IMG/VR virus record: IMGVR_UViG_3300021142_001776
Coordinates: 1 to 38,251 of that record
Length of the DNA stretch: 38,251 nucleotides
DNA from: a virus
Reading direction: 5' to 3' (one strand)
Within the stretch, counting starts at the first letter, position 1; each line of letters opens with the position of its first letter. The notes under the pieces were generated by a model. The model searched no databases. It worked only from the letters and a program-made list of their open reading frames with translations, and was not told the origin of the DNA. Below are positions 11,085-31,630 of this stretch, piece by piece. Both the position numbers and the translations under genes were made by a program.

Positions 11085-11828
11085 TTAGTTATTTCCTAAT
11101 ACGTTTATAAGGTATTCTTCTGCTTCTATAGAATGAACTGCATGTAATTCTTTAGATATTTCATGCGTCCAACTTGAAATGTCAACAAATCTGTAAATCA
11201 TTGGAAAAATTGGAGCCAATGCATCTGCACAAGCAACTGCAATTTCTCTATGTTCCTTTTGGGTTTCAACCCCAGAACGTATTTGTATATAGTGAATCCA
11301 AGAACGAATACTTCCTTTCATATACATTCTTGAAACTGTTAGACCTTCTGGAAGGACTACTCTTGCCTGTTCTTTAGCCAACCCGTTATTGATTGCCCAC
11401 TTATATGCTGATTTAGCATTATTCAAAACAGTTCTTTGGTAATTTTCCCATTCAGCTTTAATAAAATCGTCATCGAAATCGACACTATTTTGTCTATTCT
11501 TTTCGTCTTGAAGTCTTGCTTCTCTTGTCACAAAACCAAGGTCTTTGGTTGGATCAGCATATCTTTGACTAAATTCTTGAAATGTGAATGAACGGTGTCT
11601 AAGTATTTGTCTTGCAATATCTCTGGTAGTCTCAATCTCTAAAGTAGCATCTACCATTTCTAAAGGTGACCAATGCTTATGTTTTATGAGATAATCTACA
11701 AGTTTTTCTGCAGTAGTATCATTATTTTGGTTAGAAGGATTAGATACTCTGGCAACGTAAGCAATTTGTTCTAATAAATTCCGTTTACCTTCAACATCTT
11801 GTGTAAAGCTTTTCAAAGTCACTTTCAT
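11085..11828 (-). CDS. thyX: Flavin-dependent thymidylate synthase ThyX
   Basis: Makes dTMP from dUMP using FAD, NADPH and methylene-tetrahydrofolate. The ThyX signature appears as RHRSFTFQEFSQRY, a variant of RHRxxSxNExSxR with Thr and Gln at two positions. The LPEGLTVSRMYMKGSIRSWIHYI region and the C-terminal ELHAVHSIEAEEYL helix are also typical. I use the ATG at 11828 (247 residues), which overlaps the primase stop as TAATG and has GGAG nine bases upstream; earlier in-frame ATGs overlap that site. Part of the gp61-thyX-mazG-nrdB-nrdA operon. Confidence 0.93.
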   Translation of the reverse strand: MKVTLKSFTQDVEGKRNLLEQIAYVARVSNPSNQNNDTTAEKLVDYLIKHKHWSPLEMVDATLEIETTRDIARQILRHRSFTFQEFSQRYADPTKDLGFVTREARLQDEKNRQNSVDFDDDFIKAEWENYQRTVLNNAKSAYKWAINNGLAKEQARVVLPEGLTVSRMYMKGSIRSWIHYIQIRSGVETQKEHREIAVACADALAPIFPMIYRFVDISSWTHEISKELHAVHSIEAEEYLINVLGNN

Positions 11829-12844
11829 TAACATTTTCTCCATGTTATAATTTCTAATTTGGCTCTCAAATCAGAAAACGTATTTTTATTTATAATATCA
11901 ATTATATCGTCAGAAGTCATTCCTGAAAGAATGGCATCGTTAATATCTTTATGCCTAAACGTATCTGGGAATAAACAAACTTTAAAATTCTGGTCAATTG
12001 CTTTTTCTATTTGTTTGATCAAAGCAAGATTTCTTGGTTCATTATCAAATATAAGGACAACATTATCTTTATCTTGGATAATATTTTTTACAGACGATAA
12101 ATTCGCATCAGCAGTTGCGATACAATTATCTATGAACATTGAATCAATTGGACCTTCACAAACATATACTAATTTGTTTAGATTTGCTTTATCAATTCCA
12201 TAGACTTTATCTGAATTAGTATCAATCTTTATTGTTATATATCGTACTTTTGAATTAGTTAAGGTTCTCCCTTGTATAGCAATAATCTTATTAAATTTAT
12301 TTCTAAAAGGAATAACCAACCTTTTATCGCCTTCAAACAAATCTTTACCGTGATCAGGAAGAAATTCATCAAGGAATTTTTTAAAGTCTTCTGCATAGTA
12401 TAGATCAGAAAAATATTTTTCTGGTATTTGTCGTTCTTCTACGTACTTTCTGGCTAAGTTATCAGAATCAAGACTTTTTACAGTTGGAATATTTAACTTT
12501 TCTTTTGTATTAAAGACTGGCTTTTCAAATTCAAATTTCGGCTTTGTATAATTATGGTGTCCAGTCTCTCCGTTTGCATATCGCTCATACGAATATTCTT
12601 TTGCAAGAGATGGGTCTATGAAACTAAGGAATTTATAAAATGTTTTTCCTTTACCGCAATTATGACAATGAAAGAACATGTCATTATTTTTACGGAAAAA
12701 GTATCCTCTTTTTCTGGTTTTCTTTTTTTGTGAATCGCCGCAATAAGGGCATCTGCACGTATAGAGATCATTATTTTTCTGTGTAAAGCCTTCAAGCTTA
12801 CAAGAAACCATTTTCAAATATTTTACATCAATATAAAAGCTCAT
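11828..12844 (-). CDS. 61: DNA primase, T4 gp61 type
   Basis: Makes RNA primers with the gp41 helicase. 338 residues, very close to T4 gp61 (342). The N-terminal zinc ribbon uses Cys32/Cys35 (CPYC) and Cys60/Cys63 (CHNC), with the basic KKKTRKRGYFF between. A TOPRIM-like catalytic region follows: VYVCEGPIDSMF (Glu), then NVVLIFDNEPRN (Asp) and KDINDAI. In T4 gene 61 is next to 41; here the helicase gene lies about 20 kb upstream. No clear Shine-Dalgarno precedes the ATG, and a hairpin and promoter occupy the leader. Confidence 0.9.
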   Translation of the reverse strand: MSFYIDVKYLKMVSCKLEGFTQKNNDLYTCRCPYCGDSQKKKTRKRGYFFRKNNDMFFHCHNCGKGKTFYKFLSFIDPSLAKEYSYERYANGETGHHNYTKPKFEFEKPVFNTKEKLNIPTVKSLDSDNLARKYVEERQIPEKYFSDLYYAEDFKKFLDEFLPDHGKDLFEGDKRLVIPFRNKFNKIIAIQGRTLTNSKVRYITIKIDTNSDKVYGIDKANLNKLVYVCEGPIDSMFIDNCIATADANLSSVKNIIQDKDNVVLIFDNEPRNLALIKQIEKAIDQNFKVCLFPDTFRHKDINDAILSGMTSDDIIDIINKNTFSDLRAKLEIITWRKC

Positions 12845-13892: not shown

Positions 13893-14306
13893 TTATTTTA
13901 GTTCTCTTAATTTGTATATAGTTGTGTTTATAAGACCTGTTATCTCATCTATGATATTTTGTATTTCAGTATCATCGGATAACATTAGTCTGTTTGCATC
14001 AACCCATTGTAATAACGTAACCGCAATGGATAATCCATCTGCTGTAATAACTTTAATCTTTGGAGGAGTTTCTAATTTCCCATATCTTCCACCAAAACAC
14101 TCCATCAATTGATCTAATAATGGAGGAAGTCCAGTATAATATTCATTACTTGCAATATGAGCAGAATATGAAGAAGTGGTTAGATGAAAATAATGCATTG
14201 AAACTACTGAGCTATAAATTTGTGAAAAGAATTCAGTTGCCTTTGCTTTACCTTCCATGAGGGTATTTTGCGTCAAAGCTTCTTTTAATTCGACAAAATT
14301 TTTCAT
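13893..14306 (-). CDS. Dps/ferritin-like-fold phage protein (DUF5856-like)
   Basis: 137 residues beginning MKNFVELKEALTQNTLMEGK. A helical bundle follows, with MHYFHLTTSSYSAHIASNEYY, LLDQLMECFGGRYGKL and a C-terminal long helix. The pattern HxxHLxTxSxxxHxAxxxYY...LxDxLxExxxGRxGK is what I recall for DUF5856-type proteins of T4-like phages, which resemble Dps/starvation proteins. Metal binding or DNA protection has not been shown. It ends the structural gene run, and its N-terminus begins with a short helix typical of that run. Confidence 0.6.
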   Translation of the reverse strand: MKNFVELKEALTQNTLMEGKAKATEFFSQIYSSVVSMHYFHLTTSSYSAHIASNEYYTGLPPLLDQLMECFGGRYGKLETPPKIKVITADGLSIAVTLLQWVDANRLMLSDDTEIQNIIDEITGLINTTIYKLRELK

Positions 14307-14531: not shown

Positions 14532-14762
14532 TTATGGTAGTTTTCGTTTAATCGTTCCCATAACTGGAGAAGCTGGTGATGTACCTGGATAATCTTTTTT
14601 CTTTCTCTTCTTTAAATTAACAGGAGGCGAATCTGGTGGAGCACCAGCAATACTACCGCCACTAATAACATTAGTAGGAGATGCGCCGCCAGAGATGCCA
14701 GCACCAACACTAACGCCACCATCTTCTTTTAAACCTTTTACGAACTCTTTATATGTTTTCAT
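14532..14762 (-). CDS. Short Gly/Ser/Pro-rich protein with capsid-targeting-like N-terminus
   Basis: 76 residues. The N-terminus MKTYKEFVKGLKEDGG closely resembles the T4 capsid-targeting sequence of internal head proteins (MKTYQEFIAEA). The body is low complexity: VGAGISGGAS, APPDSPP, a basic NLKKRKKKDY and a C-terminal KRKLP. The usual glutamate for prohead-protease cleavage is missing at the expected place (VKG), but LKED follows. It overlaps the upstream gene by four bases (ATGA). A packaged or scaffold-associated peptide is a reasonable guess. Confidence 0.55.
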   Translation of the reverse strand: MKTYKEFVKGLKEDGGVSVGAGISGGASPTNVISGGSIAGAPPDSPPVNLKKRKKKDYPGTSPASPVMGTIKRKLP

Positions 14763-15145
14763 ATCTTTCTAAGTAGATTTGCTAAGTCTTGATGTATTTG
14801 TATATCTGATGATACTATATTATTACCATTTATAGATTTAACTACATCAGGCATATAATTCAAATACACTAAAAATGTTTTTAATACTGGATAGTGTTCT
14901 TCTTTGATTTTAAAGAATAACATCCTAGTACAAGCTTCAACGTTAAATACGTTGTAGCTCATTATAATATTATTTAAAACTAATCTATCGTTGATAGAAT
15001 CTTTTAAATAATATTTTTGTATCGACCCTTTGATATATTTGAATCGTCTCAAATCATCAAAAAACTCGTCCTCAATATAATGCGGCGAAACATAATTATT
15101 CGCCGCATATAAAATAAAATTATCAGAAGTCAAATTACGAAACAT
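14759..15145 (-). CDS. Hypothetical protein (128 aa), late operon
   Basis: Not recognised. MFRNLTSDNFILYAANNYVSP at the start is followed by a helical, aromatic-rich sequence (FKYIKGSIQKYYLKDSIND, then VLNNIIMSYNVFNVEACTRM) and ends LANLLRKI. The length and helix pattern recall small T4-like proteins of the tail-completion or neck region, but no specific match can be claimed. It lies between two genes with capsid-targeting-like N-termini. Confidence 0.5.
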   Translation of the reverse strand: MFRNLTSDNFILYAANNYVSPHYIEDEFFDDLRRFKYIKGSIQKYYLKDSINDRLVLNNIIMSYNVFNVEACTRMLFFKIKEEHYPVLKTFLVYLNYMPDVVKSINGNNIVSSDIQIHQDLANLLRKI

Positions 15146-15153
15146 TAATTATA

Positions 15154-15558
15154 TTATTTTTCTACTATTTCGGCAGTTACATTATAAACGCCTTTTTCCA
15201 TAGTATAGTTGATATTCAAATTGAATTTATTTGAAGTATCTCTACCAGGAGCAATATAATCCTTTAGAGATAATCCAGTAATATCACAATAAGAAACAGG
15301 AAAAGTGAAAGTACCCGTTTTTTTATCTAACGGAATACTATCTTCTTTTGGAAATTTCAAAGCATACATTGAAAGGAGTTTTCTGATTTTATTTAACGCT
15401 TCTCTTAAATCAGCAAATCCAGTAGATGTTTGTATTGCCAAATTCTTATTTAATTCATCTAAACCTTCTGGTTGATGAATGTTTGGATATTGCCTGTCGA
15501 TAGACACGACAGGCACGTTTGGTTGCATTTCAGAAATAAACTGTTTATAAGTTTTCAT
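15154..15558 (-). CDS. Late protein with capsid-targeting-like N-terminus (134 aa)
   Basis: The N-terminus MKTYKQFISEMQPN is nearly the T4 capsid-targeting sequence MKTYQEFIAEA. The ISE that ends residue 10 fits the (L/I)-x-E consensus cleaved by the T4 prohead protease gp21. The remainder (134 residues) has a helical middle (LNKNLAIQTSTGFADLREAL) and a beta C-terminus (YTMEKGVYNVTAEIVEK). No fold is recognised. It follows the structural protein gene in the late operon. Packaging inside the head is inference from the leader. Confidence 0.6.
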   Translation of the reverse strand: MKTYKQFISEMQPNVPVVSIDRQYPNIHQPEGLDELNKNLAIQTSTGFADLREALNKIRKLLSMYALKFPKEDSIPLDKKTGTFTFPVSYCDITGLSLKDYIAPGRDTSNKFNLNINYTMEKGVYNVTAEIVEK

Positions 15559-15571
15559 TAGCTATCTCAGA

Positions 15572-16393
15572 TTATAGTCCAGGGAAATATGTTCCGCCAG
15601 AATTTGCATTAGTAACATTAGGAGAACTTAAAGCAACTAAAGTTTCGCTCTGAATTCTTCCTAATCTACCACCAGGAATAACAGTAACAGTTAAAGTTGT
15701 ATTATTTGCTCCAGAGATGGTTGCTGTAGGAATAGCGTTATATGATGCACCGTTAGAAGTTAATGTTGCGGTAACAACGTTTCCATAAGCAGTAATGTAA
15801 CCATTAGCAGCATAAGCATTAGGTGAACCAGTTGGTGCGCTAAAAGTAATATAAGCATTAGAATAAGTTAAGGTTGAACTAACGTTTCCTAAAGCGATAT
15901 CATAAACATATCCTCTTCCTTGCATTACGCGATTCCATCCAGTATGCGCTACTGGGTTATCGAATGTTGTGCCATTACCAAAAGTAGCGTTAGCAATTCT
16001 ACCACTGTCTACAAGATAAGTATTAGCGTTATAATAAACTTCTACTGGCTTTGACGCAGGATAAGCAATTGCTGTATCAAATTCAAATGTGTCGCCAATA
16101 TTAACATTAGCAGTAACATTAGTTGATAATACTACAGAAGTAGCATTAACAGATACAACAGTTACGTTACCTAAAAAGAAGCCAGGAACTGTACTATTTA
16201 AATAAAGATTGTTTCCACTGACATATTGTCCAGTAGTGATTCCTGAAGTATTGGCAATGAAAAGAGTATTTGCACTTGTTGAATTATAAATGGTAGGAGC
16301 ATTTACTGTGAATTGATTTACGTCTCTTGCTCTACGTTCCATCGGGAACTTAGGAGTAGAGATCTGATTGTCGGTATTTCCCCATGCTGGCAT
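15572..16393 (-). CDS. T4-like virion structural protein
   Basis: 273 residues, rich in Thr, Asn, Ser and Val, predicted beta. It opens MPAWGNTDNQ and near the end has AHTGWNRV and GGRLGRIQSETLVAL. These are the marks I recall for a T4-like cyanophage structural family: WGNTDN at the start and HxGWVRRxxGTGGRAGRVQYExLVA near the end. Middle domains look like repeated beta units (SGITTGQYVSG, VTVVSVNATSVVLSTNV). It has an AGGA site and a TATAAATA late promoter upstream. The location in the virion is not known to me. The many Asn/Thr/Ser make it a conceivable target of the glycosyltransferases nearby, which is only a hypothesis. Confidence 0.7.
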   Translation of the reverse strand: MPAWGNTDNQISTPKFPMERRARDVNQFTVNAPTIYNSTSANTLFIANTSGITTGQYVSGNNLYLNSTVPGFFLGNVTVVSVNATSVVLSTNVTANVNIGDTFEFDTAIAYPASKPVEVYYNANTYLVDSGRIANATFGNGTTFDNPVAHTGWNRVMQGRGYVYDIALGNVSSTLTYSNAYITFSAPTGSPNAYAANGYITAYGNVVTATLTSNGASYNAIPTATISGANNTTLTVTVIPGGRLGRIQSETLVALSSPNVTNANSGGTYFPGL

Positions 16394-16434: not shown

Positions 16435-16442
16435 TATTTATA
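16435..16442 (-). promoter_or_regulatory. T4-type late promoter (TATAAATA)
   Basis: Minus strand TATAAATA at 16442-16435, 42 bases before the ATG of the structural gene, in the only sizeable gap of this region. Confidence 0.65.
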
Positions 16443-18861: not shown

Positions 18862-19656
18862 TTAATTATTCTTGATATTGATAAGTTCCGAATTTATAAA
18901 GATTTTTCCTCCTTTTGCCTTAACTCCTTGGCAAAAAGAAATAATATCTGATTCTTCAAAATTATTTTCTACATTGAACCCTCTATATCTACAACCTTTA
19001 ATTGTTTGTGATTTATAGATAGAGAATCCTCCATGAGCAGCATCAACTTCAATTAACCCATAATCTTTAGGGATTTTAATAAATCTTGATTGTACAAATA
19101 TATTCTTTGCATCCTCTAAAGACATATATGAAGGTTTTCTGTATACCTCATACCAACAATCATAATCTAACCAACCTTCTTTTCGTAATGTCCAAAGATC
19201 ATAATATGTATTTTGGTTAGCAGTCATAGCATCCCAAGAATCAATATCATACTTGAAGCAACTCAGTACTCCATCAAGATCCATCTCTTGTGCCATAACA
19301 TCATCTACGCACATTTGTATATAAAAATCATGAGAATCTAGTAATCCTTTATCTTCGCAAATTTGAATTGCTGCATTTCTTGCAGTAGCAATCCTAATTG
19401 TTCTGGACATAATTCTAGGTTCTAATCTACCCAAACTTGTAACATATACGTTTTTATTTTTCTTAGCATACTCTTCTAAAATTTCATAGCTATTATCTGA
19501 AGAATCGCTTTCGACAAAAACACAAGAATATGATTTGAATAAACTACCAATACGTTCAATATTCTTAAATACGTCTCTCAAATAAGGAGAGCAATTACGA
19601 ACAGGGCCAACAAATACTACAGAATATTTTTTTGTTATATCTTTCAAGTTATGCAT
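18862..19656 (-). CDS. GT-A-fold glycosyltransferase
   Basis: 264 residues, last gene of the sugar operon. VVFVGPVRNCSPYL at residues about 13-26 is followed by VFVESDSSDNSYEIL, the nucleotide-binding strand with Asp/Ser pattern. RIATARNAAI and MCVDDVMAQEMD, a DxD-like metal motif, come next. The overall form resembles CMT1/GT69-like or GT2-like transferases that act on sugar-nucleotide donors. Donor and acceptor are unknown. It overlaps the upstream ColD-like gene by eight bases. Confidence 0.7.
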   Translation of the reverse strand: MHNLKDITKKYSVVFVGPVRNCSPYLRDVFKNIERIGSLFKSYSCVFVESDSSDNSYEILEEYAKKNKNVYVTSLGRLEPRIMSRTIRIATARNAAIQICEDKGLLDSHDFYIQMCVDDVMAQEMDLDGVLSCFKYDIDSWDAMTANQNTYYDLWTLRKEGWLDYDCWYEVYRKPSYMSLEDAKNIFVQSRFIKIPKDYGLIEVDAAHGGFSIYKSQTIKGCRYRGFNVENNFEESDIISFCQGVKAKGGKIFINSELINIKNN

Positions 19657-20824
19657 AATCGTCCAAAATAGTGCTTAATAATTCTAAATGCTTTTTGCCT
19701 ACGAATTGACTGTTTCCAATATACAATCCGAAATCATGAATAATATCAGCATTAGTTAATTGTTTTTTAGTATCAATTTTATAATACTTCAAGAAAGGAT
19801 GGCGTAATAAATTACCAGAAACAATAGGTCTGTATTCTATACCATGTTCTGTAAATGCTTTCTGTAACTTCATCTTAACAGCTTTACTACTACAGATAAA
19901 CGGTAAACAAAAACTACTGCAAGTATCAGAATATTCCATAGGGAAAAATCTATTTGCATGATCTAATAGAATATCACAAAACTCTTTGTAATTCTCATTT
20001 CTTATTTTAATGGAATCGTTCAACTTATTTAACTGTGATAATCCTAGTACAGCATTCAGATCAGTATTTCTAAAATTATACCCATCAGTAATGAATAAGA
20101 ATTGTTTATCAATGTCTGGATACTTTTCAGCATACCTATTAAACATTAATGATTCTCTAGCCATACCATGACTTCGCTTCATCTTCATGAGATCATACAA
20201 TTCAAAATTGTTAGTGGAAACGAATCCTCCTTCAACCGAAGTTAAATGATGCCCGAAGTATGTAGAAAACGTAGAACCTATGGAACTATTATCAGAGCCA
20301 ACCTTTCCACCATCAGCAAGTTTACAACCGTGAGATTCACAAACATCATCCATTATGATTGCTTTTGGGAATAGTTCTTGTAGCGTTCCATTAATTCTGG
20401 TTTTTGACGAAAATCCTAATAAGTGAGTAACAAATATCAATTTGATATCTTTATGTTTTACAGCAAGTTTCTTCAACTCACTTTCATCAAAACTAAAATC
20501 AACGATATTAATATCACAGAAAACTGGTTGCAATCCTAACTGAATAATAGGAGCAACATTAGTCACCCAAGTACAAGCTGGTAATAATACCTTATCACCG
20601 TCTTTTAATCCATAATATTCTTTAACAGCTGCAACAAGAAGGAAATTAGCAGTGCTACCAGATGAAACGAAAAGAGAATGATTACAACCTAACCATTCAC
20701 TCCAAGCCTTCTCAAGTTCTTTTACTTTAGGGCCATTAGTGAACTGATTAGTAGTTAATGCAAACTTAGCTAATTTGAGTCTATCTCCAAAAGAGATAGC
20801 GTCTTCCATTAAGTTCCATTTCAT
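19649..20824 (-). CDS. ColD-like GDP-4-keto-6-deoxymannose 3-dehydratase (PLP-fold, Lys to His)
   Basis: DegT/DnrJ/EryC1 fold, 391 residues from the ATG at 20824 (TAATG overlap with the synthase gene). The PLP-binding stretch reads STYFGHHLTSVEGG, with His192 where aminotransferases carry the Schiff-base lysine. This substitution marks ColD-type dehydratases, which use PMP and glutamate to remove the 3-OH of GDP-4-keto-6-deoxymannose. Other ColD-like blocks are SSGSTANFLL, PACTWVTNVAPI, DVCESHG and MKRSHGMARES. It lacks the cysteine set of RfbH, as does ColD. GDP-mannose 4,6-dehydratase (23267-24289) would provide the substrate. An aminotransferase (perosamine synthetase) is unlikely without the lysine. 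Confidence 0.78.
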   Translation of the reverse strand: MKWNLMEDAISFGDRLKLAKFALTTNQFTNGPKVKELEKAWSEWLGCNHSLFVSSGSTANFLLVAAVKEYYGLKDGDKVLLPACTWVTNVAPIIQLGLQPVFCDINIVDFSFDESELKKLAVKHKDIKLIFVTHLLGFSSKTRINGTLQELFPKAIIMDDVCESHGCKLADGGKVGSDNSSIGSTFSTYFGHHLTSVEGGFVSTNNFELYDLMKMKRSHGMARESLMFNRYAEKYPDIDKQFLFITDGYNFRNTDLNAVLGLSQLNKLNDSIKIRNENYKEFCDILLDHANRFFPMEYSDTCSSFCLPFICSSKAVKMKLQKAFTEHGIEYRPIVSGNLLRHPFLKYYKIDTKKQLTNADIIHDFGLYIGNSQFVGKKHLELLSTILDDYA

Positions 20825-21768
20825 TATTTGCAACTCTCTCTATTGTTTAGAAACCAATCAATAGTGATTTTCAACCCTTCGTCCAATTCATATTTTGGAC
20901 GCCATCCAAGGTCATATAACTTTTCATTACATACTTTTCTTCTTGGAGTTCCGTTTGGTTTATCCTTATCCCAGATAATTTCTCCTTTAAAATCAACGAT
21001 TTGCTTTAACTTTTCAGCTAAATCGAACATAGTGATTTCATTATCAATACCTACATTAATGATTTCTTCTGAATCGTATGTATTCATTAAGAAGATACAA
21101 GCATCTGCTAAATCGTCTGCAAAAAGGAATTCTCTTGTTGGAGTTCCATCGCCCCAACAGGTAATAGAATTGTCTCCGTTTTCTTTAGCAGTAACGAACT
21201 TATTGATTAATCCAGGAATAACGTGGCCGTTTTCAACGTTGAATCTATCATTTATACCATATAGATTAGTAGGCATTAAACTAATACAATTAAATCCATA
21301 TTGTTGTTTATATTTCTGACACATCGTCAAACCAGCAATCTTTGCAATAGCGTATGCATTATTGGTTTGTTCCAATGGACCAGTCATCAAATATTCTTCT
21401 TTGATTGGTTGTGGCGTAATCTTAGGATAGATACATGCGCTGCCTAAAAACAGTAACTTCTTACAACCTTGTTTATGAGCATATTTAATTACGTTTGTTT
21501 GGATTTCAAGATTCTCAACAATAAAATCAGCTGGATATGTTTTGTTATAATTAATCCCACCAACCTTTGCTGCAGCTAGGAAAACGTAATCAGGATGTTC
21601 TTTGAAGAAAAACCATTCAACAGCTTCTTGATCAGTTAAATCCAATTCCTCTCTTGATTTTGTAATAATATTTGTATAACCTTGTTTTTTCAATTCTCTT
21701 ACAATAGCTGAACCAACTAATCCATTATGTCCGGCAACATAAATCTTATCATTTTTTTCCATAATCAT
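20824..21768 (-). CDS. fcl: GDP-L-fucose synthase (or GDP-L-colitose synthase)
   Basis: 314-residue SDR epimerase-reductase. GHNGLVGSAIV binds NADPH; LGSACIYPK holds the catalytic Ser and Cys; NAYAIAKIAG the Tyr-Lys pair; NGHVIPGL the His base. PTNLYG and TPTREFLFADDLA are typical of Fcl. It would convert GDP-4-keto-6-deoxymannose to GDP-L-fucose. ColC, which makes GDP-colitose from the 3-deoxy intermediate, is a homologue. Adjacency to the ColD-like gene keeps that option open, but motif similarity favours Fcl. The exact start is either the ATG at 21768 or the one at 21762. Confidence 0.88.
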   Translation of the reverse strand: MIMEKNDKIYVAGHNGLVGSAIVRELKKQGYTNIITKSREELDLTDQEAVEWFFFKEHPDYVFLAAAKVGGINYNKTYPADFIVENLEIQTNVIKYAHKQGCKKLLFLGSACIYPKITPQPIKEEYLMTGPLEQTNNAYAIAKIAGLTMCQKYKQQYGFNCISLMPTNLYGINDRFNVENGHVIPGLINKFVTAKENGDNSITCWGDGTPTREFLFADDLADACIFLMNTYDSEEIINVGIDNEITMFDLAEKLKQIVDFKGEIIWDKDKPNGTPRRKVCNEKLYDLGWRPKYELDEGLKITIDWFLNNRESCK

Positions 21769-22583
21769 TATCCAATAAAATATTTTAGATGTTTATTCGC
21801 GATATATTTGCGATTTCTTTCGTATATATATCCAACTCTATCGTTATATGTTGAAGGATTATCTGAACGCATAGTTCCCCAATTTACGTCACTCTTGAAT
21901 TTCATAGCATAGACTCCATTAATATATCCAGCCATTTTCATTCTTATACTGAAGTCATGACAATCATATCCGCAAGGACGTAAATTTTCATCGAAAAAAC
22001 CACATTCTTCGAATCGTCTCCATTGAGTGCAAGTTGGACTTCTGATAGCAATCTCGGATTCTACAAATTCGCCATGATTTACAGTTTTATGGAATTTCCA
22101 ACTTAATTGATTCCAATGCCCGAATTCAGATTCTATGTAATCATCTTCTTTGATTTCATCATTCATTATATGTACAGAAACCCCAAGTCTCATAGAAATA
22201 TAACCTAAATCATCTCTAGAATTAAATAATTCTACGAACTTCTTATCTATATCAGTTTCTTGTAAAATAACATCGTCCTGAACCATGAATACTAAATCAT
22301 CAAGAGATGGGGAAAGATTATCTCTAATAAAAGTTAGTCCCATGTTTAAACATTCAATTTCATGAACGTCATTTGCTTTTAAGATATGAAAGTATTCTGG
22401 TAATATACATTTATCCTTAACCCCATACACCTTATCTTCTGTACTATCCACACAACCATCTAATATACAAATAATCGTTGGTGGCAAATTCTCTCTTGAA
22501 TGAGAATCTAAAATACCATAAAGAACATTTTCAATCAAATTTTCTTTATTATGTACTGGTACTATATAATATGCCTTACTCAT
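21768..22583 (-). CDS. Family 2-type glycosyltransferase
   Basis: 271 residues, GT-A fold. YYIVPVHNKENLIENVL is the N-terminal nucleotide-binding strand, IICILDGCVDST follows, and FMVQDDVILQE supplies the acidic metal motif. A GYDCHDFSIRMKMAGY segment resembles the acceptor/base region (ED-like). There is no membrane segment, so it is cytoplasmic. Donor unknown. It overlaps the preceding glycosyltransferase by eight bases and abuts fcl, so they are co-translated. Confidence 0.8.
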   Translation of the reverse strand: MSKAYYIVPVHNKENLIENVLYGILDSHSRENLPPTIICILDGCVDSTEDKVYGVKDKCILPEYFHILKANDVHEIECLNMGLTFIRDNLSPSLDDLVFMVQDDVILQETDIDKKFVELFNSRDDLGYISMRLGVSVHIMNDEIKEDDYIESEFGHWNQLSWKFHKTVNHGEFVESEIAIRSPTCTQWRRFEECGFFDENLRPCGYDCHDFSIRMKMAGYINGVYAMKFKSDVNWGTMRSDNPSTYNDRVGYIYERNRKYIANKHLKYFIG

Positions 22584-23274
22584 CCATCACTCCTTCATCG
22601 AACTTATATTCATCAGCAACCCATTTAGGATCAAATCTTTTCATTGCCGCCAAGGAAGCAGCATATAATGGCATATCGTTTTCGTCATATCCATTACCAC
22701 AGAAAGAATATTCATTCTTCAATTTACTTCTAGTATCTTTAAACCACCCTTCTTCGTTCATACTATGAATCATCATACTATTTTTGATTACCGGATAGAT
22801 ATAATCTCTCAAGAAGAATTGATCACTTAGATAAAACTTATTAGTCTTAGCATATTCAATCATTAATTCTTCAAGTTGGTTACCAAAACAACCTTTATAA
22901 GCGAACGCGCACCCAATAATAGGAAACTCAAAATGAGCATCATGGTCCCTGAATACGTGAAAAACTTGATCAGATTCTATCCATTCGTGTATAGCTGCCG
23001 CTTCTCTAATTGTAATTCTACTATCGGAATCCCGAACCATTACTATATTATTTGGGTCTTCGAACATAGGAAGGAAACGCCAAAACATACCATACATATC
23101 AGTATCTGCTTTGACTATATCAACCCCATAACCTGTAAAATTATTTGGTTTATCGGTGTAAATCCTTACTCTCCAATTAGGATAATACTTTTCAGCCAAT
23201 TGTATTTGGCGTTTGGCTCCGACGATGTATCTGGGGTTATCTCCCCAGACACTCATAGAAATAATTTTATTCAT
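22576..23274 (-). CDS. GT-A-fold glycosyltransferase (capsular type)
   Basis: 232 residues. [20 protein letters not shown] at the N-terminus, [13 protein letters not shown], then MVRDSDSR (DxD metal motif near residue 82) and a [23 protein letters not shown] region. These are typical of a transferase family found in capsule and phage sugar clusters. No membrane segment. It overlaps gmd upstream by eight bases. The sugar moved is unknown. Confidence 0.68.
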
Positions 23275-24289
23275 TATTATTACCTAATACAGACTTACAC
23301 ATTTCATAAACCAAAGTTTCAAACGTATACTTTGGTTCCCATCCAAGCAGCGTTTTAGCCTTTGTTGGATCACCAAGGAGAGTAGCAACTTCTGTAGGTC
23401 TAAAGTATTTTGGATCTACAGTAACAACTACTTTACCAGTATTAGTATCAATACCAACTTCATCAAGACCTTCTCCTTCCCAACGAATATTCATACCAAA
23501 ATAAGGAGCGCAAGATTCAACGAATTGTCTAACCGAATATTGCTCTCCTGTGGCAACAACGTAATCATCTGGAGTATCTTGTTGTAGCATCAGATACATC
23601 GCTTCAACATAATCTTTAGCGTGTCCCCAATCGCGAAGAGCATCAAGATTACCTAATGATAGAACATCAGCCTTCTTGTTTAATATATCATTCAATCCTA
23701 AAACGATCTTTTGAGTTACGAAAGTTTCGCCTCTACGTGGACTTTCATGATTAAATAGAATTCCGTTACAAGCAAATACGTTATATGCTTCTCTATAATT
23801 CTTTAGAATCCAGAACCCGTAAAGTTTAGCAACTCCATATGGACTTCTAGGATAGAACGGTGTAGTTTCTCTTTGAGGAATTTCCTGTACCAAACCATAA
23901 AGTTCGGAAGTGGACGCTTGATAAAACTTGATATGATTTTCCATACCAAGTAACTTAATAGATTCAAGAATACGTAAAGTACCTAATGCATCCACATTGC
24001 CAGTATATTCTGGAATTTCAAACGATACCTTTACGTGGGATTGTGCTGCTAGATTATAAATCTCATCAGGCTTAATTGATTGAATCAATGCAGTGACGTT
24101 TAGTGAATCAGTAACGTCACCATAATGCAACTTAAAATTAGGATCAGAGTAGATATGGTCAACTCTTGAAGTATTATAAGAAGAACTCCTTCGTTTTACT
24201 CCATGTACCTCGTATCCTTTCTCTAATAGTAGTTCAGCAAGATACGATCCATCTTGCCCAGTCACACCAAAAATTAACGCTTTTTTCAT
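23267..24289 (-). CDS. gmd: GDP-mannose 4,6-dehydratase
   Basis: 340 residues, the usual length. [20 protein letters not shown] is the NADP-binding loop; [24 protein letters not shown] (Thr/Glu pair), [12 protein letters not shown] (Tyr-Lys), [17 protein letters not shown] and [20 protein letters not shown] are diagnostic. It converts GDP-mannose to GDP-4-keto-6-deoxymannose, the branch point for both Fcl (fucose) and the ColD-like enzyme (3,6-dideoxy sugar). AAGGTGA lies before the ATG. GDP-mannose supply would come from the host or from the phage phosphomannomutase and isomerase genes. Confidence 0.95.
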
Positions 24290-24300
24290 ATTATTTCACC

Positions 24301-25242
24301 TTACCAAATAAACTTTTCTTTATTATATTGTACTATATATTTTAATTCTTCATCGAAATCAACTTTTGGTTTCCAACCAAGACTTCTTAACTTAGAATCA
24401 TCTATGGAATATCTTACGTCTTGTCCGGGTCTTGAATAGTCAAAATCAACGTATGGAGTGATATCGTCTTTTCCATTATATAACTTAATTAGCTTCTTTA
24501 AAACATTGATATTTTTGTCTTCGTAATTCCCGCCGATATTATAAATTTCATTTACAACGCCAGATTCAATTATCGTGAGTACAGCCCTAGCAGTATCTCC
24601 AGCATGTAACCAAGTTCTGCTTGGTTCCCCACCTTCATGTACAGGAATCTTTCTCCCAAGTTTTAAGTATTTACAAGCTTTGGGAATTAATTTTTCAGCG
24701 TACTGCCCTTTACCATAATTATTAGATGGTCTAACAATAATATACGGAACTCCGAAAGTCCTATTCCACGCAGTAATAAGCATATCAGCGGAAGCTTTAG
24801 TTGCAGAATAAGGGTTTGACGGTTTTAATAGATCAGTTTCTTTATGGGCTCCATCTACAATATCCCCATAAACTTCATCTGTACTGAAATGAAGCAGAAC
24901 TGGCATTTTAAACTTGTGTTTATTCTTAATTAATTCAAGAAGTCTATGAACACCATTAACGTTACTACTCAGAAACTCTGAAGAACTTACAATCGAATTG
25001 TCTACATGAGTTTCTGCTGCGGTATTAATAATATAATCGCAATCGTACAAATAATCAAGATCATTAATATCAGATTTGATGAATTTAAATGTTTTAAACG
25101 TTTTAAATCCCTCCAAAACTTCTTCATCTGCCGCATACGTTATTTTATCTACGCCTATAACATACCAACCCATATTTAAACAAGCGGTAGTAACATAAGA
25201 TCCTATGAATCCTAAACATCCAGTAACATAAACAACTTTCAT
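24301..25242 (-). CDS. RmlB-like NDP-hexose 4,6-dehydratase
   Basis: 313-residue extended SDR. YVTGCLGFIGSYV (NAD loop), AAETHVDNSI, STDEVYGD (Thr-Asp-Glu of dehydratases), KPSNPYSATKAS (Tyr-Lys), RPSNNYGKGQ and EPSRTWLHAGDTARA match dTDP-glucose 4,6-dehydratase; RmlB is about 360 residues. It could act on dTDP- or CDP-glucose; the RfbH-like partner upstream would prefer a CDP-4-keto-6-deoxyglucose. No RmlA or RfbF-type glucose-1-phosphate nucleotidyltransferase is in the window, so that substrate must come from the host or from elsewhere in the genome. Confidence 0.85.
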   Translation of the reverse strand: MKVVYVTGCLGFIGSYVTTACLNMGWYVIGVDKITYAADEEVLEGFKTFKTFKFIKSDINDLDYLYDCDYIINTAAETHVDNSIVSSSEFLSSNVNGVHRLLELIKNKHKFKMPVLLHFSTDEVYGDIVDGAHKETDLLKPSNPYSATKASADMLITAWNRTFGVPYIIVRPSNNYGKGQYAEKLIPKACKYLKLGRKIPVHEGGEPSRTWLHAGDTARAVLTIIESGVVNEIYNIGGNYEDKNINVLKKLIKLYNGKDDITPYVDFDYSRPGQDVRYSIDDSKLRSLGWKPKVDFDEELKYIVQYNKEKFIW

Positions 25243-26021
25243 ATTTTATATTTCCTTAATTCATCATTAATTCCAACTAATGGCAAATTCAATTCACTCA
25301 ATCTTTCACCAGATCCCGTATAATTTTTATTACTCTTTGTTGAATTTATCTTCTTATTTAATTTATTATATTTGTATATAGTATAGATATAATCACTCAA
25401 TCTATATTTGTCTTTATATACTAAATTCACATCTTTATACTTTGGCGTATTTTCACAGAAGTATTTAACAACTGTTACTAGATCTTTCTCCGAGAAATAA
25501 TCAAAATACCTATCAACCAACGCAAAATCATCATCGAATATATGATTGAACAATCTGTTTTTATCTTTATGGGATAATAAACCGAACAATCTAAGATTAT
25601 ATACAGAATTCGTTTTTTCCACGGATCTGGCTATTATATTTTTACTTATTCCATAATGATCATATGGAAAACTACAACAAATATCAGATTCTTTAGCATT
25701 GTCGATAGATGTCCTCCTATCAAATTCTGCTCCGGAACCAAAACATATCATTTTACCATAATAAGGTTTAGCATCAAGTAAATTATGAAATATAGATATA
25801 TTTTCGTTAAAAATATCATAATTAAACATGTGCATAGTAGTGTCTGTATTAGATACACAATTTATTATAACATCTGGATTATGTTTTGCAATAAAAGAAA
25901 TAACGTTTGCATTATCTAATAAATTACATTCATTTCTGGTTACTGGTATAACGTCTATATTTTCTTTTAAAATACTTCCGATTATACCAGTACTACCGAA
26001 TAGTAATATCTTATTTGCCAT
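25239..26021 (-). CDS. NAD(P)-dependent SDR sugar epimerase/reductase
   Basis: 260 residues, divergent extended SDR. LLFGSTGIIGSILKENI gives the nucleotide loop, DVIINCVSNTD the strand that follows, CFGSGAEFDRR the Ser region and YDHYGISKNI the Tyr-x-x-x-Lys catalytic pair. Such short members accompany RfbH and thiamine-enzyme genes in bacterial surface-sugar clusters and would reduce a 4-keto group, by analogy with YerF of yersiniose synthesis; that is inference. It overlaps the thiamine beta gene by 11 bases. Confidence 0.65.
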   Translation of the reverse strand: MANKILLFGSTGIIGSILKENIDVIPVTRNECNLLDNANVISFIAKHNPDVIINCVSNTDTTMHMFNYDIFNENISIFHNLLDAKPYYGKMICFGSGAEFDRRTSIDNAKESDICCSFPYDHYGISKNIIARSVEKTNSVYNLRLFGLLSHKDKNRLFNHIFDDDFALVDRYFDYFSEKDLVTVVKYFCENTPKYKDVNLVYKDKYRLSDYIYTIYKYNKLNKKINSTKSNKNYTGSGERLSELNLPLVGINDELRKYKI

Positions 26022-26544
26022 AATCCGGAAACTCTACTAAAATAGTGCTTCCTTTTCTACGATACGCATCCACATAACTGTCAACGATCTTAGTAGGATC
26101 GGTTAATTCAACTACAGTAACGTAATTTAGCATACTTCTAAAAGCATCTGAGAAATTACCTTTATGTTGATCTTGTGGATCAACAGGAATTTCAGAACCA
26201 ACAGCAACTCTAATAATGACTTTCGGATCATATCCGCCATCACTCATCTTATGCAACTTATCTAAGTGATTAACTAATTGATCAGCAGCGCATAGAAGGA
26301 AATTCCATCTAGGGAAACAAGACACAGGAACAAATCCATTTAGAGCCATTCCTATACTAAATCCCATTTGGAAATTTTCGGCTACAGGAAATTCCATTCT
26401 CTTAGATTTTGGTAAATGATCTAATGTATCATATAAACCAGTACCTTCATATAGTACAGATTGTCCTAAGAATATTGTATCTGGCTGTTCAGATAACCAA
26501 GACATTGCGTCTCTCAATTCTTGTTTATAATATAACTGACTCAT
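26011..26544 (-). CDS. Thiamine-diphosphate enzyme, beta (E1-beta/transketolase Pyr-like) subunit
   Basis: 177 residues. The central EFPVAENFQMGFSIGMALNG matches the E1-beta pyrimidine domain, with Glu56 as the cofactor-activating glutamate. FPRWNFLLCAADQLVNHLDK and a VGSEIPVDPQDQHKGNFSDAF region (E1-beta His loop) follow. The usual C-terminal transketolase domain of E1-beta (about 325 residues) is missing, so it is a minimal Pyr domain. Its partner is the alpha-type gene at 27148-27789. Its AAGGTGA site lies in the last codons of the intervening endonuclease gene. Confidence 0.75.
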   Translation of the reverse strand: MSQLYYKQELRDAMSWLSEQPDTIFLGQSVLYEGTGLYDTLDHLPKSKRMEFPVAENFQMGFSIGMALNGFVPVSCFPRWNFLLCAADQLVNHLDKLHKMSDGGYDPKVIIRVAVGSEIPVDPQDQHKGNFSDAFRSMLNYVTVVELTDPTKIVDSYVDAYRRKGSTILVEFPDYGK

Positions 26545-27194
26545 TCATCACCTTTAGAAGTTAATCCTTTATTCCAACCTCTACCCTTTTTCAAGCCTTC
26601 TGTATTTTGTTTACTTTTTTGTTCTTCTGTCATTTTTATTCCTTTATTCCAAGGAGGTCTATTACCAAATGAGCCGGCATTCTTTTTACCTTTACTAATT
26701 TCACTGAGTTTTTTCTTTTGTTCTTCACTCATAGGAATACCCTTCCTTCCAGTAGGTCTTCCTTTCAACGTATTAGATCTTTTTAAATTTGATTCTACTG
26801 ATCTAAAAGATTTCTTCTTTTGTTTATACCCTTTGGTGTTTCTAAATCGTTTTTTATTAAAAAAACAAGATTTATCCAATAATAAAGGATTATCCCAATT
26901 TTCATATATCAATCTTTGCTCGAAATCATAAGCATCATCACTATTAAAAAATTCTGCTATTATGAAATAATTATATTCATCAAAATTAGGATTTATCAGT
27001 TTAGAAGAAGTTTTATATAATGGAAAATCTTCATTTGAAGGAAGTTTATTACTACGTCTATATCCTATATAAAACTCATTAGTTTCTCTATGGATACATA
27101 CATAAACATAAGGTACGGCCTTAGTCGAAGAATAATTACAAAATCCGTCAAAAAGTAACACGAACACCTGCCCCTGCATGGGGATATTTTTCAT
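26541..27194 (-). CDS. GIY-YIG homing endonuclease with NUMOD3 motifs
   Basis: 217 residues. VPYVYVCIH and EFYIGYRRS are the two GIY-YIG strands, and FEQRLIYENW supplies the helix with the catalytic Glu. The C-terminal half is basic and has tandem NUMOD3-like DNA-binding motifs: KGIPMSEEQKKKLSEISKGK and KGIKMTEEQKSKQNTEGLKKG. This layout is that of phage Seg/freestanding homing endonucleases. The first in-frame ATG at 27194 overlaps the alpha-gene end by 47 bases. The start may instead be downstream, for instance the GTG that follows GGGGCAGG. It sits between two genes of one enzyme. Confidence 0.85.
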   Translation of the reverse strand: MKNIPMQGQVFVLLFDGFCNYSSTKAVPYVYVCIHRETNEFYIGYRRSNKLPSNEDFPLYKTSSKLINPNFDEYNYFIIAEFFNSDDAYDFEQRLIYENWDNPLLLDKSCFFNKKRFRNTKGYKQKKKSFRSVESNLKRSNTLKGRPTGRKGIPMSEEQKKKLSEISKGKKNAGSFGNRPPWNKGIKMTEEQKSKQNTEGLKKGRGWNKGLTSKGDE

Positions 27195-27789
27195 TTTTGT
27201 AAGTATAACAAATTAAATGGGCGCCATCAAAATCAAAACTATCCTCAAGTCCTCGTTGATAATACATGGGAATATACCAAGGAAACAATCTATTCCAGAC
27301 TTCGTTGGTGGGTGACGTAACGCTTAGACCATTATTCTCAACGACAAACGTTATTGGTAAACGATTATTTACCGCATATTTGTACGCTTCATGGAACGCT
27401 CCGGTTTCCGCACTCATATCGCCCAACCAACACCAAACCCTAGAGTCTTGTCTGTTATGTTTTATTGCTTGTGCTATTCCCACAGCTATACTTGGAATGC
27501 CACCCACAATACTTGAGCATACGATCTTATATTCAGGTAGATTCATAACCATACTTTTACCTTCTACGATCTTCTGCATTAGAAGATCTTCAGGAACTCC
27601 TTTAAGGAGACATTGGTAATGATTTCGCCAAGTACAACAAACCCAATCTTTTTCAATATTGATTCTTTCGAAAACTCTGAGCATCTTAGCTTCATTACCA
27701 TGATACAAATGTACAGGTGCTCTTATCTCAGCATTGTTGAACTTTTCCGCTACTTTATTTTCAAATTCAATTAATTGTTCTTTATTCAT
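27148..27789 (-). CDS. Thiamine-diphosphate enzyme, alpha (E1-alpha/transketolase PP-like) subunit
   Basis: 213 residues. LGDMSAETGAFHEAYKYAVN starts the ThDP motif (GD at 123-124, variant Met for Gly) and ends with VVENNG (NN at 152-153), the spacing used for Mg and diphosphate binding. NHYQCLLKGVPEDLL and SIVGGIPSIAVGIAQAIK fit E1-alpha. The C-terminus KYPHAGAGVRVTF looks natural for this short family. With the beta gene it would form a two-carbon transferring enzyme. AviB1/B2 (avilamycin) and YerE (yersiniose) are precedents for ThDP enzymes attaching two-carbon branches to nucleotide sugars. Confidence 0.75.
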   Translation of the reverse strand: MNKEQLIEFENKVAEKFNNAEIRAPVHLYHGNEAKMLRVFERINIEKDWVCCTWRNHYQCLLKGVPEDLLMQKIVEGKSMVMNLPEYKIVCSSIVGGIPSIAVGIAQAIKHNRQDSRVWCWLGDMSAETGAFHEAYKYAVNNRLPITFVVENNGLSVTSPTNEVWNRLFPWYIPMYYQRGLEDSFDFDGAHLICYTYKNEKYPHAGAGVRVTF

Positions 27790-29110
27790 ATTGCTTCATA
27801 AAATAGTCAACTTGTTCACTTATATATGCAATTTGATCCTGCGTTATTACTGGACTTGTTCCATGGAAAAATGTATTCGTAGTAGTAAATGTAGCATTTG
27901 GATAATTGTTCACAGCTTCATCAGTACTCATCAAGTGAGAATACGCTGGCTGTAAAATGATATTTCCAGCAAAATATGGTCTTGTTTGTATCTTCTTGTC
28001 TTCCAAGAAATTAACGAATTCATTCCTAGTGAATGGAGCGTCTTTTCTTACAGTCAAAGGAAACGCAAACCAACTTGGATCGCTTAAATTCGTCGCTCTT
28101 GGTAGATGAAAGTATTCTTCATATTTACTATAAGCATCAAACAACAATTTATAATTACGAACACGTAATTCTTTAATTTCATCAAGTTTTTCTAGCTGGC
28201 GAAGACCCATAGAACCTTGTAGTTCAATTGGCTTTAAGTTATACCCTATCTCATCGTAAACATATTTGTGATCAAAAGTTTCGTCAGGTAAAGACGGAAT
28301 CCAATTACTGAATCTATTCTTACAAGTTCCGCACTTCAACGTATTTGCTTTAGGACCAACACAATAACACCCTCTTCCCCATTCTCTAAAGCTTCTAAGG
28401 ATGATTTCTTGTTCTTTAGTAGAACAAGATACAAAGCCACCTTCTCCCATCGTAATATGGTGAGCAGGATAGAAACTACACGAAGCCATTTCACCAAAAC
28501 TTCCCAACTGTTGTCCTGCGTAAGTTGATCCCAAAGCATCGCAACAATCTTCAAGGAGTATTAGATCATACCTAGATACAAGTTCCATCAACCTAATCAT
28601 ATTAGGAGGATTTCCTAATACATGAGCAAATGTAATTACCTTAATGTCTGGATTATTTTCTAACGTTTGTTCTACTTTATCCAGATCAAGATTAAGAGTA
28701 TCAAGTTCAACATCAACAAAAACTGGTTCAAATCCCATTTGAATAATGGGATTTAACGTTGTGGGAAATCCCGCAATTGGAGTGAGAACTTTTGTTCCTT
28801 TTGGAAGGTTATGTCCACGTTTACTCGTAAGACTAGCCATCATCAATAGATTAGAACTAGAACCGCTATTAGTCAAAACACCATAATCTTTTCCAAAGTA
28901 TTTTGGGAATTTGTTTTCGAATTTTAGGCAATCATTACCCATCACTAGCCATCCCTTTAATAGCGATTCTACTGCAGAAACGAATTCAGTATGATCAAAA
29001 TAAGGTCCAGCATAATTAATATAATCTTGACCAGGAACCCAAACTTTATTTTGTTGTTTAGTTTTAATATATTCTTCAACTAAAGTTAGGATTTCATTCA
29101 AACTATTCAT
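27782..29110 (-). CDS. rfbH: RfbH-like CDP-4-keto-6-deoxyglucose 3-dehydratase (E1)
   Basis: 442 residues from the ATG at 29110 (TAATG overlap, GGAG nine bases upstream). DegT fold with SFYPAHHITMGEGG, where His217 replaces the PLP lysine exactly as in RfbH/DdhC. The Fe-S cysteines fit E1: Cys190, then 57 residues to Cys248, one residue to Cys250, and Cys260 after nine (seven in E1, C-X57-C-X-C-X7-C). LPDETFDHKYVYDEIGYNLKP is another RfbH block. It dehydrates CDP-4-keto-6-deoxyglucose to a 3-deoxy product using PMP. Its partner reductase (RfbI/DdhD) is not in the window and would be host-supplied or encoded elsewhere. It overlaps the ThDP alpha gene by eight bases. Confidence 0.88.
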   Translation of the reverse strand: MNSLNEILTLVEEYIKTKQQNKVWVPGQDYINYAGPYFDHTEFVSAVESLLKGWLVMGNDCLKFENKFPKYFGKDYGVLTNSGSSSNLLMMASLTSKRGHNLPKGTKVLTPIAGFPTTLNPIIQMGFEPVFVDVELDTLNLDLDKVEQTLENNPDIKVITFAHVLGNPPNMIRLMELVSRYDLILLEDCCDALGSTYAGQQLGSFGEMASCSFYPAHHITMGEGGFVSCSTKEQEIILRSFREWGRGCYCVGPKANTLKCGTCKNRFSNWIPSLPDETFDHKYVYDEIGYNLKPIELQGSMGLRQLEKLDEIKELRVRNYKLLFDAYSKYEEYFHLPRATNLSDPSWFAFPLTVRKDAPFTRNEFVNFLEDKKIQTRPYFAGNIILQPAYSHLMSTDEAVNNYPNATFTTTNTFFHGTSPVITQDQIAYISEQVDYFMKQYE

Positions 29111-30027
29111 TATTGTCCACTCCAATATGCATATGATGTTTCAAGATGACGTATTTCGTTTATTTTCTGAGGTTCATCCAACCGTAAAGGATAGATCCAA
29201 TGCTCATTAAACATATTTGAACCATTTGGATAATACGCATTATAATTTATTTCCCAACGCTTTCCTTTTATACCGAAGAATAATTGAATTATTCCTCCTG
29301 TTTGTATACCTACTTTTCCTTTTTGTTTTGCATGTTCAACATAAAATGGCGATTGCGTTGTCACTCCTGTGATTAGCACATCATAATCGTATTGATCTAT
29401 AATGCTCTTCGTATGTTCTACAACTTCTTCAAAGTTATTACAATTAGGATATTGCCTATCGTCTACTAAAGGATGGAATGGAGTTTTAATACAACCAACC
29501 AATTCAAACGGTACTATATTATCTCGTTCTTTTCCCCAAATATTATCAATGTTATTCCATTGATGTAATATACTATTTGCATGAGATGATATAACTAATA
29601 CTTTTTTTCCTTTTAGGTATTTTGTCCAAGGATCATTCAATTCACCGAAAACGGATCGTCCAGTTAATGCACCTGGATCTACAATTTCCATATCAAAGTA
29701 GATAGTTTTATCACCAAACATATCCAAAAAATCTTTGTCATTTCTAGTTTGATGAGATATATCCACAAATCCTAGTATATCGCAAGATTTCATAATTTCA
29801 ACCGTTTTTGGATATACTGTTGAAAAAGCATATTCTAATGAAGAAGGATATACTCCAGCTTCAATCATCGTATTTTCATTAAAGAATTCGTATACTGGTC
29901 TTTGTCCTTTATGTAAACAATTTGTTACATATGTGGCAGTATTATCAATACGCAACATAGAGAAGGATTCATTATTTTTTAATTTATCAGAAACTAATTG
30001 GTTAATTTCAAAAAAGTTTTTTATCAT
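29110..30027 (-). CDS. Putative GT-D-like glycosyltransferase
   Basis: 305 residues. The N-terminus SFSMLRIDNTATYV resembles the FSxIRIGDGE start of DUF1792/GT-D transferases. VLVISSHANSILHQW, YDVLITGVTTQSPFYVEHAK and GIIQLFFGIKGKRW are also seen in such proteins of capsule and phage clusters, as far as I recall. The Asp-x-x motif is weak because DNTA replaces DGE. No membrane segment. Located between the RfbH-like and GT10 genes. The glycosyltransferase call is moderate; a different sugar-related function is possible. Confidence 0.45.
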   Translation of the reverse strand: MIKNFFEINQLVSDKLKNNESFSMLRIDNTATYVTNCLHKGQRPVYEFFNENTMIEAGVYPSSLEYAFSTVYPKTVEIMKSCDILGFVDISHQTRNDKDFLDMFGDKTIYFDMEIVDPGALTGRSVFGELNDPWTKYLKGKKVLVISSHANSILHQWNNIDNIWGKERDNIVPFELVGCIKTPFHPLVDDRQYPNCNNFEEVVEHTKSIIDQYDYDVLITGVTTQSPFYVEHAKQKGKVGIQTGGIIQLFFGIKGKRWEINYNAYYPNGSNMFNEHWIYPLRLDEPQKINEIRHLETSYAYWSGQ

Positions 30028-30884: not shown

Positions 30885-31630
30885 ACTAACCCCCTCGCAG
30901 TATCATACGTAAAAAAGTCAGTTTGCTTTCCATAATATTTCGATAAAGATTTTGGTTGTACCTTAATATAATAGATTACTTCCTTCAAGGATTCAGGACA
31001 TTTACTAAACATCTGTTGCATTTCTTCTTCAGCTTTTTCTTTCTTATATCCTGTTGAAGGAGGATGATCAACAATAAAATTATAATCTCTAATAACCTTT
31101 CTTTGAGCTAGATGGGCAAATCCACAAATTAATAAATCCCATCCCCAACCAAGATCATTATAATCCATTAAATGTATATTTTCAATCATCTTATTGAGCA
31201 TATCTTTATGGATAAACCAACAAGTATTATCTGTGGTTGCAACAACAGACAATCTATTATCCAAGGTAAATATGTCCGTTCTATCGGAAGTGTAGAAAGT
31301 ATCGTCTACGTTAGGTGCATATACGCCCCAATTATACTTGTTAAACGTATTGTTAGCTGCATCGATAATATCTTCAAAATTATCATATGATGCGTCTGCT
31401 TGGATGTGGCAAATGGCATCAATATCACTATTTTCTTGATAAGTTTTTAATGCTGTCCTAAATTGATCAGAAAAATAGCATTCATTACCAATATTAATCC
31501 AACCAACTTCTTCATTATCATCGTCTGAATTAACAACTACAACTTTTCCGTGTGGTATAAGTTTCATTTCCCACTCTTTGGCCTTTTCGTATTGACCTTT
31601 CCAAGAAAAAACAAAATATAAAATATTCAT
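30881..31630 (-). CDS. GT-A-fold glycosyltransferase
   Basis: 249 residues from the ATG at 31630 (ATGA overlap, GGAG nine bases upstream; an earlier TTG is less likely). MNILYFVFSWKGQYEKAK, HIQADASYDNF (DxD-like metal site) and WFIHKDMLNKMIENI with DLGWGWDLLICGFA (conserved GWGxD, acceptor-side) fit a family 2-like transferase. VDHPPSTGYKK follows. The donor sugar is unknown. Directly upstream of GT10. Confidence 0.7.
   Translation of the reverse strand: MNILYFVFSWKGQYEKAKEWEMKLIPHGKVVVVNSDDDNEEVGWINIGNECYFSDQFRTALKTYQENSDIDAICHIQADASYDNFEDIIDAANNTFNKYNWGVYAPNVDDTFYTSDRTDIFTLDNRLSVVATTDNTCWFIHKDMLNKMIENIHLMDYNDLGWGWDLLICGFAHLAQRKVIRDYNFIVDHPPSTGYKKEKAEEEMQQMFSKCPESLKEVIYYIKVQPKSLSKYYGKQTDFFTYDTARGLV

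Follow-up and report, generated by a model that had tools for sequence, protein, structure and literature searches.

The window analysed here is the whole of a 38,251-base IMG/VR record, of which a fragment of a T4-superfamily myovirus gives the best account; T4-type replication genes are present in it. On the minus strand, a gene whose product begins MPAWGNTDN is followed by ORF 1, a DUF7207 gene, ORF 2, a 74-aa ORF, a DUF5856 ferritin-like gene, a coiled-coil membrane gene, a further membrane gene and the primase gene (Table 1). The DUF7207 gene end and the ORF 2 start overlap by 4 nt. An earlier note on this DNA had singled out ORFs 1 and 2 for an N-terminus resembling that of T4 internal head proteins, and both genes are indeed found on the minus strand, each starting MKTYK[QE]F. 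The nearest relative of the window, L003/G001, displays an identical gene order and 60% identity in ORF 1, and a nucleotide search of the region against named phages gave no match.

Table 1. Features of the minus-strand block and their positions in the window
Feature	Position	Strand	Remarks
TATAAATA, late-promoter-like (T4-type)	16435..16442	-	lies 42 nt ahead of the first block gene
First gene of the block	15572..16393	-	N-terminus MPAWGNTDN
ORF 1	15154..15558	-	134 aa, starts MKTYKQFISEMQPN
ORF 1 capsid-targeting-like leader, MKTYKQFISE	15529..15558	-	predicted prohead-protease cut after E10
DUF7207 (phrog_407) protein	14759..15145	-	between the two leader genes
ORF 2	14532..14762	-	76 aa, starts MKTYKEFVKGLKEDGG, pI 10.1
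ORF 2 leader, MKTYKEFVKG then LKE	14724..14762	-	predicted cut after E13, not E10
ORF 2 segment ASPTNVISGGSIAG	14643..14684	-	resembles the mature gp23 N-arm of T4-like phages
ORF 2 basic tail, KKRKKK	14595..14612	-	after the arm-like segment, common to relatives
DUF5856 ferritin/Dps-like protein	13893..14306	-	N-terminus MKNFVELKEAL
Primase (gp61-like)	11828..12844	-	block ends upstream of it

This arrangement echoes that of known phages. In T4, gene 61.1 precedes gene 61, and the window block likewise ends upstream of the primase gene. The virion-gene block of cyanophages, which extends from the GC190 cytidylyltransferase/NMNAT to the ‘major head protein’, has the order of the window around DUF7207, the coiled-coil gene and primase, and several of its products occur in virions. 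It differs in that no NMNAT-type gene was seen in the window block, where ORF 1 lies directly before DUF7207. The product of the first gene resembles that of an S-SCSM1 gene at an equal position (MALWGNSDN), annotated as a virion protein. A DUF7207 search matched 539 records, mostly T4-superfamily phages with cyanophages in the majority; other carriers are Sinorhizobium, Caulobacter and Pelagibacter phages and Ackermannviridae phages.

The earlier note had called the two proteins late. All four minus-strand copies of TATAAATA in the window are found 23-44 nt upstream of ORF starts, so that late expression of the block is a reasonable and plausible reading of the sequence, although the number of such sites in the window is not above chance.

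Separately from this block, a large island with NDP-sugar, aminotransferase and glycosyltransferase-like genes adjoins the replication genes (18862-32734, minus strand). Within the block, the DUF5856 protein was considered as a third leader protein, its L003 counterpart starting MKTYIELKEAL, a weak leader. In RB49 and the Klebsiella phage phiKp_16, however, the N-terminus is no more than leader-like, and we do not claim it as such. Virions of the Vi01-like phage Sajous1 have been reported to contain a ferritin-like protein, gp217 (PMC10892097), whose match to DUF5856 is a candidate one.

A leader of T4 type on unrelated proteins

Experimental mapping in T4 has assigned targeting to leader residues 4 and 7 and processing to residues 8 and 10, and targeting can persist when no cut is made at residue 10 (PMC9026906). 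ORF 1 agrees with the rule at each of these positions (Y4, F7, I8 and E10). The earlier remark that ISE ends the leader at the right distance for cleavage thus holds for ORF 1, where it closes at residue 10, and does not extend to ORF 2, which has V8 but G10 and offers no site there. The nearest consensus site in ORF 2 is LKE at residues 11-13 and, since this protein has no E10, a cut after LKE13 appears more likely.

Searched as a DNA pattern, MKTYK[QE]F has two matches in the window and none in 100 dinucleotide-preserving shuffles, and the reversed control pattern gave nothing in the window. ORF 1 and ORF 2 display no similarity beyond the leader. More generally, the T4-type leader rule recurs on unrelated proteins: in related loci the leader pattern gave 21 sense matches versus 0 antisense, and five unrelated genes near each other on contig G007 all carry strict leaders. 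The N-terminal MKTY/F-x-x-F of T4 IPI, IPII and IPIII lies at an equal distance in both window ORFs and, in both sets, a leader is joined to unrelated mature domains. On the other hand, the mature domains of the window ORFs are unrelated to those of the T4 proteins, and their genes are located in the block before primase and not in the T4 ip loci. ORF 1 also has I8 and E10, whereas residue 10 of ORF 2 offers no cut site.

As for the prohead protease, to which the earlier note attributed leader removal, the T4 family (gp21) is encoded in 12 of 17 related or reference records, T4 included, whereas neither gp21 nor gp23 was found in the 38-kb window or in G001. The proposed capsid targeting is sustained by the fit of the leader to the T4 rule, by gp21 in relatives and by the virion data described below, while for ORF 2 its processing part breaks down at G10. 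We consider that the capsid-targeting reading of both leaders is well supported, though not proven for this phage, and that packaging of both proteins is likely. The leader mechanism itself is familiar from T4, and this environmental lineage would be a new instance of its use.

Cleaved after E10, ORF 1 would leave a mature part of 14.0 kDa with a predicted start at residue 11. An iterative profile search of the loci gave a family of 26 environmental members, most of which lie directly before DUF7207, in many T4-like contigs. Their leaders are mostly kept (MKSFKSFISEE, MKSFKQFVNEE, MESFKKFVSEA and, in L004, MKTYKQFIAEA), and a few relatives (L011, L015) have none. The structure predicted from 24 members comprises a helix at residues 4-10 in the leader, a disordered linker and a domain of two helices and three strands. 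This model had no significant match in a PDB fold search and, in a viral structure library, it matched four phage proteins to which no function is assigned. A tblastn search against named phages found no relative of ORF 1.

Leader-bearing proteins in virions

The virion proteome of the cyanophage isolate S-CREM2 comprises 52 proteins detected by mass spectrometry (PMC10665884), and we ran the T4 rule in six frames over the whole genome, in strict and relaxed versions. The strict rule selected only four ORFs, 6 (SAM hydrolase), 14 (kinase-like), 136 and 154 (cytidylyltransferase), and the relaxed rule added ORF 13. All of them, four of four and five of five respectively, are in the virion list (PMC10665884). 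With 52 proteins detected out of 221 annotated features, the chance of this is 0.003 for the four and 0.0006 for the five. Altered control rules gave a single match in all, an ORF not in the virion list. Detection in a virion preparation does not, alone, prove an internal position.

The rule is also matched by S-SM1 GC190 (MKKFSAFLNEA) and S-SCSM1 NMNAT (MKSFLQFLKEA), both reported in virions (PMC3037559, PMC9602691). In the T4 genome, it selects IPII, IPIII and gp61.1 only; IPI has an identical leader core and departs from the processing part of the rule. The T4 leader rule thus predicts virion proteins in a marine cyanophage, which means that packaged cargo could be listed directly from environmental phage genomes.

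Several other proteins display leaders of this kind. In S-CREM2 (OR473000; ORFs 6, 12, 13, 14, 15, 136 and 154), several virion-detected non-structural products have CTS-like leaders at or near the N-terminus, among them the SAM hydrolase and a protein annotated as a Cas9-like nuclease, in which the motif is internal. Very different phages also share a family of proteins, some 400 aa long, with HLEHLED/HLEHAED-type motifs and FxxFLxE-like leaders (L129:11965-13179; L004:4255-5484; DLP6 52316-53551; C48C1 61827-63047). In the Caulobacter phage Cr30, gp060 (L007:8383-8703) begins with the leader MKTFKQFFNESL, followed by a weak PARP-like match that is below the cut-off (E=0.0018). Its outline is reminiscent of T4 Alt, a packaged ADP-ribosyltransferase.

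ORF 2 and the proposed copy of the gp23 arm

ORF 2 is short, basic and probably disordered. By its residue 10 it would fall outside the classical internal proteins, and its position and layout favour membership in a gp61.1-type family. It starts at the end of DUF7207, with primase 1.7 kb downstream, and its layout, GLKED...SPTNVISGGSIAG...KKRKKK, combines a cleavage site, a PTN..GG.IAG arm and a basic tail, the site being further upstream of the arm-like element than in most members. It was assigned to phrog_3286 and weakly (E=0.0014) to phrog_1823, which, judging from PHROG length, would hold T4 gp61.1. A tblastn search against named phages gave one short weak match, in a marine single-cell virus.

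T4 gp61.1 itself (54 aa, starting MKTFKEFIKEDMVAGDSGGNPENISIGTTSGAVVNKGPEQIPKKKK) is encoded directly before primase gene 61 and has the leader MKTFKEFIKE. Together with its counterparts in RB49, 44RR and Aeh1, it shares with ORF 2 the place upstream of primase, an IKE/LKE site followed by D, an arm-like stretch and a KKKK tail. In contrast to T4 gp61.1, the ORF 2 stretch is of the arm type of other T4-like phages (PTN..GG.I), its gene lies 1.7 kb before primase and sequence similarity is weak. The likeness to the pro-segment and N-arm of T4 gp23 consists of an (L/I)xE site followed by a Gly/Asn/Thr-rich arm; unlike gp23, the arm copy of ORF 2 is succeeded by a basic tail, with no capsid fold.

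The cleavage site and N-arm of T4 gp23 (FLTE, the cut, then AEIGGDHGYNATNIAAGQTSGAVTQIGP) are resembled by the post-cut stretch of gp61.1-type proteins. We compared the mature gp23 arm of each phage alone with all ORFs of its own genome, in 14 genomes, with arm segments delimited by hand after the first genomes had prompted the idea. In 8 of the 14, the gp61.1-position ORF was the top match to the arm of its own gp23, with scores (against the next ORF) of 69/39 in T4, 90/40 in RB49, 97/38 in 44RR, 83/43 in Aeh1, 62/41 in S-SM1, 98/38 in syn9, 95/39 in S-CREM2 and 46/38 in phiM12. It was not on top in the other six, ranking 2 in HTVC008M, 4 in Vi01, 15 in Cr30, 27 in DLP6 and 271 in C48C1; in S-PM2 no gp61.1-position ORF was assigned in this ranking. 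When arms were permuted over genomes, the observed sum was reached in 0 of 100,000 trials, and within clades in 2 of 20,000; this run missed the 44RR ORF, through a miscalled primase start, and is consequently conservative. For T4, RB49 and 44RR, the similarity continues for 20-35 residues beyond the cut. On contig G008, the element AAPTNNAGSGNI pairs with AAPTNNYGSGNI of its own gp23.

A first profile, built from nine arm-like elements including those of the window, L003, DLP6 and Cr30, found 45 ORFs and no antisense match in 87 DUF7207 loci. These ORFs mostly start within a few bases of the DUF7207 end, and their N-terminal parts differ in sequence. A strict [LIVMF]xE[DE] site is found within 14 residues before the element in 38 of the 45, against a background of 13.6% in random 15-mers of the same proteins. 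The profile was then rebuilt from 35 environmental elements, named phages excluded, and searched against the 15,736 ORFs of the 14 genomes. Cluster ORFs of DLP6, Cr30 and C48C1 came first, and the next match was a gp23 arm, non-significant (E 0.08).

For the window itself, similarity of ORF 2 to the gp23 arms of the other, tested phages is modest, the best score being 39 (C48C1). The exact string PTNVISGG, used to look for the gp23 of the window, was found just in ORF 2 of L003/G001 and in out-of-context matches, and a less strict gp23-arm pattern had matches on 62 contigs, none of which could be linked to the window. Sequence comparisons place ORF 2, probably, in a widespread, unnamed family that copies part of the capsid protein of its own phage after a likely cut site, the match to own gp23 being seen in other phages. 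A member from S-CREM2, ORF160, is in the virion list with 7 peptides; that of S-SCSM1 is not marked as a virion protein. No description of gp61.1-type proteins as gp23-arm copies was found in the literature searched, beyond which such work may exist.

Two observations were made in named phages. In Salmonella phage Vi01 (NC_015296, 6316-6537), Vi01_007 (MKSFQDYLEDSSAPATTTADVGKP) adjoins DUF7207 and Ig-domain genes, and looks like an Ackermannviridae counterpart of gp61.1. In Aeh1 (NC_005260, 109698-110120, minus strand), a 141-aa ORF matches part of the gp23 Pfam model, over a short length (E=4e-8), and is apparently a partial capsid-gene copy.

Proposed roles in the phage head

We think it probable that the two genes are part of a late, head-associated block, with ORF 1 encoding cargo and ORF 2 a gp61.1-type arm copy. 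What has been observed are the motifs, which recur, the gene order, an arm-like stretch that tracks gp23 in most of the tested genomes and leader-bearing relatives in virions; packaging, cutting and peptide function in the window phage are what we infer from them. The amphipathic N-terminal leader would bring ORF 1 into the prohead core, where gp21 would cut after ISE10, and the folded remainder would be retained in the head, from which it may leave together with the DNA. ORF 2 would be loaded by the same type of leader and cut by gp21 after LKE13, giving a basic peptide of 63 residues (6 kDa, pI 10.2) made of a gp23 N-arm copy and a lysine-rich tail. The arm copy could dock on the inner side of the capsid, or it could compete with the real arm for its site; the tail could bind DNA or core. 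We further suppose, tentatively and with slightly less than even confidence, that the T4 superfamily, T4 with its gp61.1 included, encodes a small head-targeted protein from which gp21 releases a gp23-arm copy with a basic tail, which coevolves with gp23 and works within the capsid, either tethering shell to DNA or regulating how the arm docks, ORF 2 of the window being an environmental member. If true, the arm copy would add a so far overlooked part to a virus head that is among the most thoroughly studied.

Other explanations have to be weighed against this reading. Both proteins could instead be core or scaffold components, targeted by the leader to the prohead, serving shell assembly, then degraded or retained and never injected. 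This is the most serious competitor, although we find it the less probable account. The T4 core proteins gp67, gp68 and gp22 are processed likewise (PMC9026906), ORF 2 contains a capsid-arm-like segment, and conservation of the block across very different hosts suits assembly better than anti-defence; yet the mature domain of ORF 1 is predicted to be folded and is diverging, as cargo would, and leader-bearing proteins of S-CREM2 include enzymes such as the SAM hydrolase. It is rather unlikely that the gp23-like stretch of ORF 2 is a mere extended recognition sequence for gp21, with no mimicry of capsid binding. In 38 of 45 relatives it directly follows a consensus site and so, like the arm in gp23, lies downstream of the cut, which would suit such a sequence, but similarity that reaches well past the cut and tracks own gp23 would not, and IPII and IPIII, other proteins whose leaders fit the rule, were not found as arm matches.

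We doubt to a like degree that both are effectors, expressed late and injected together with the DNA, for host takeover or anti-defence, a role that the earlier note had allowed for. T4 Ip1, Ip2 and Ip3 are injected and inhibit Type IV restriction enzymes (PMC12373910), and the Cr30 leader protein, with its weak PARP-like match and Alt-like outline, points the same way. However, neither window protein matches an effector by sequence, fold or family, and the short, basic, probably disordered ORF 2, to judge by its C-terminal part, would rather have a role in capsid assembly or the head interior. Finally, a short motif that some relatives do without (L011 and L015 for ORF 1, many for ORF 2) could have arisen by chance or be a generic start of phage proteins that are not packaged, as the earlier note had cautioned. 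Absence from the shuffles, the sense/antisense contrast and the virion list of S-CREM2, where all rule-positive ORFs appear, make this very improbable, and we reject it.

Elsewhere in the window, a gene on the minus strand (1118-2143) has TATAAATA 26 nt before its GTG start and encodes a His/Lys-rich, basic protein (337 aa, ATG at 2131, pI 9.2) with the start MLSYKQYILKLVNEDLLEEGA. It is possible that this is a third packaged protein with an atypical leader.
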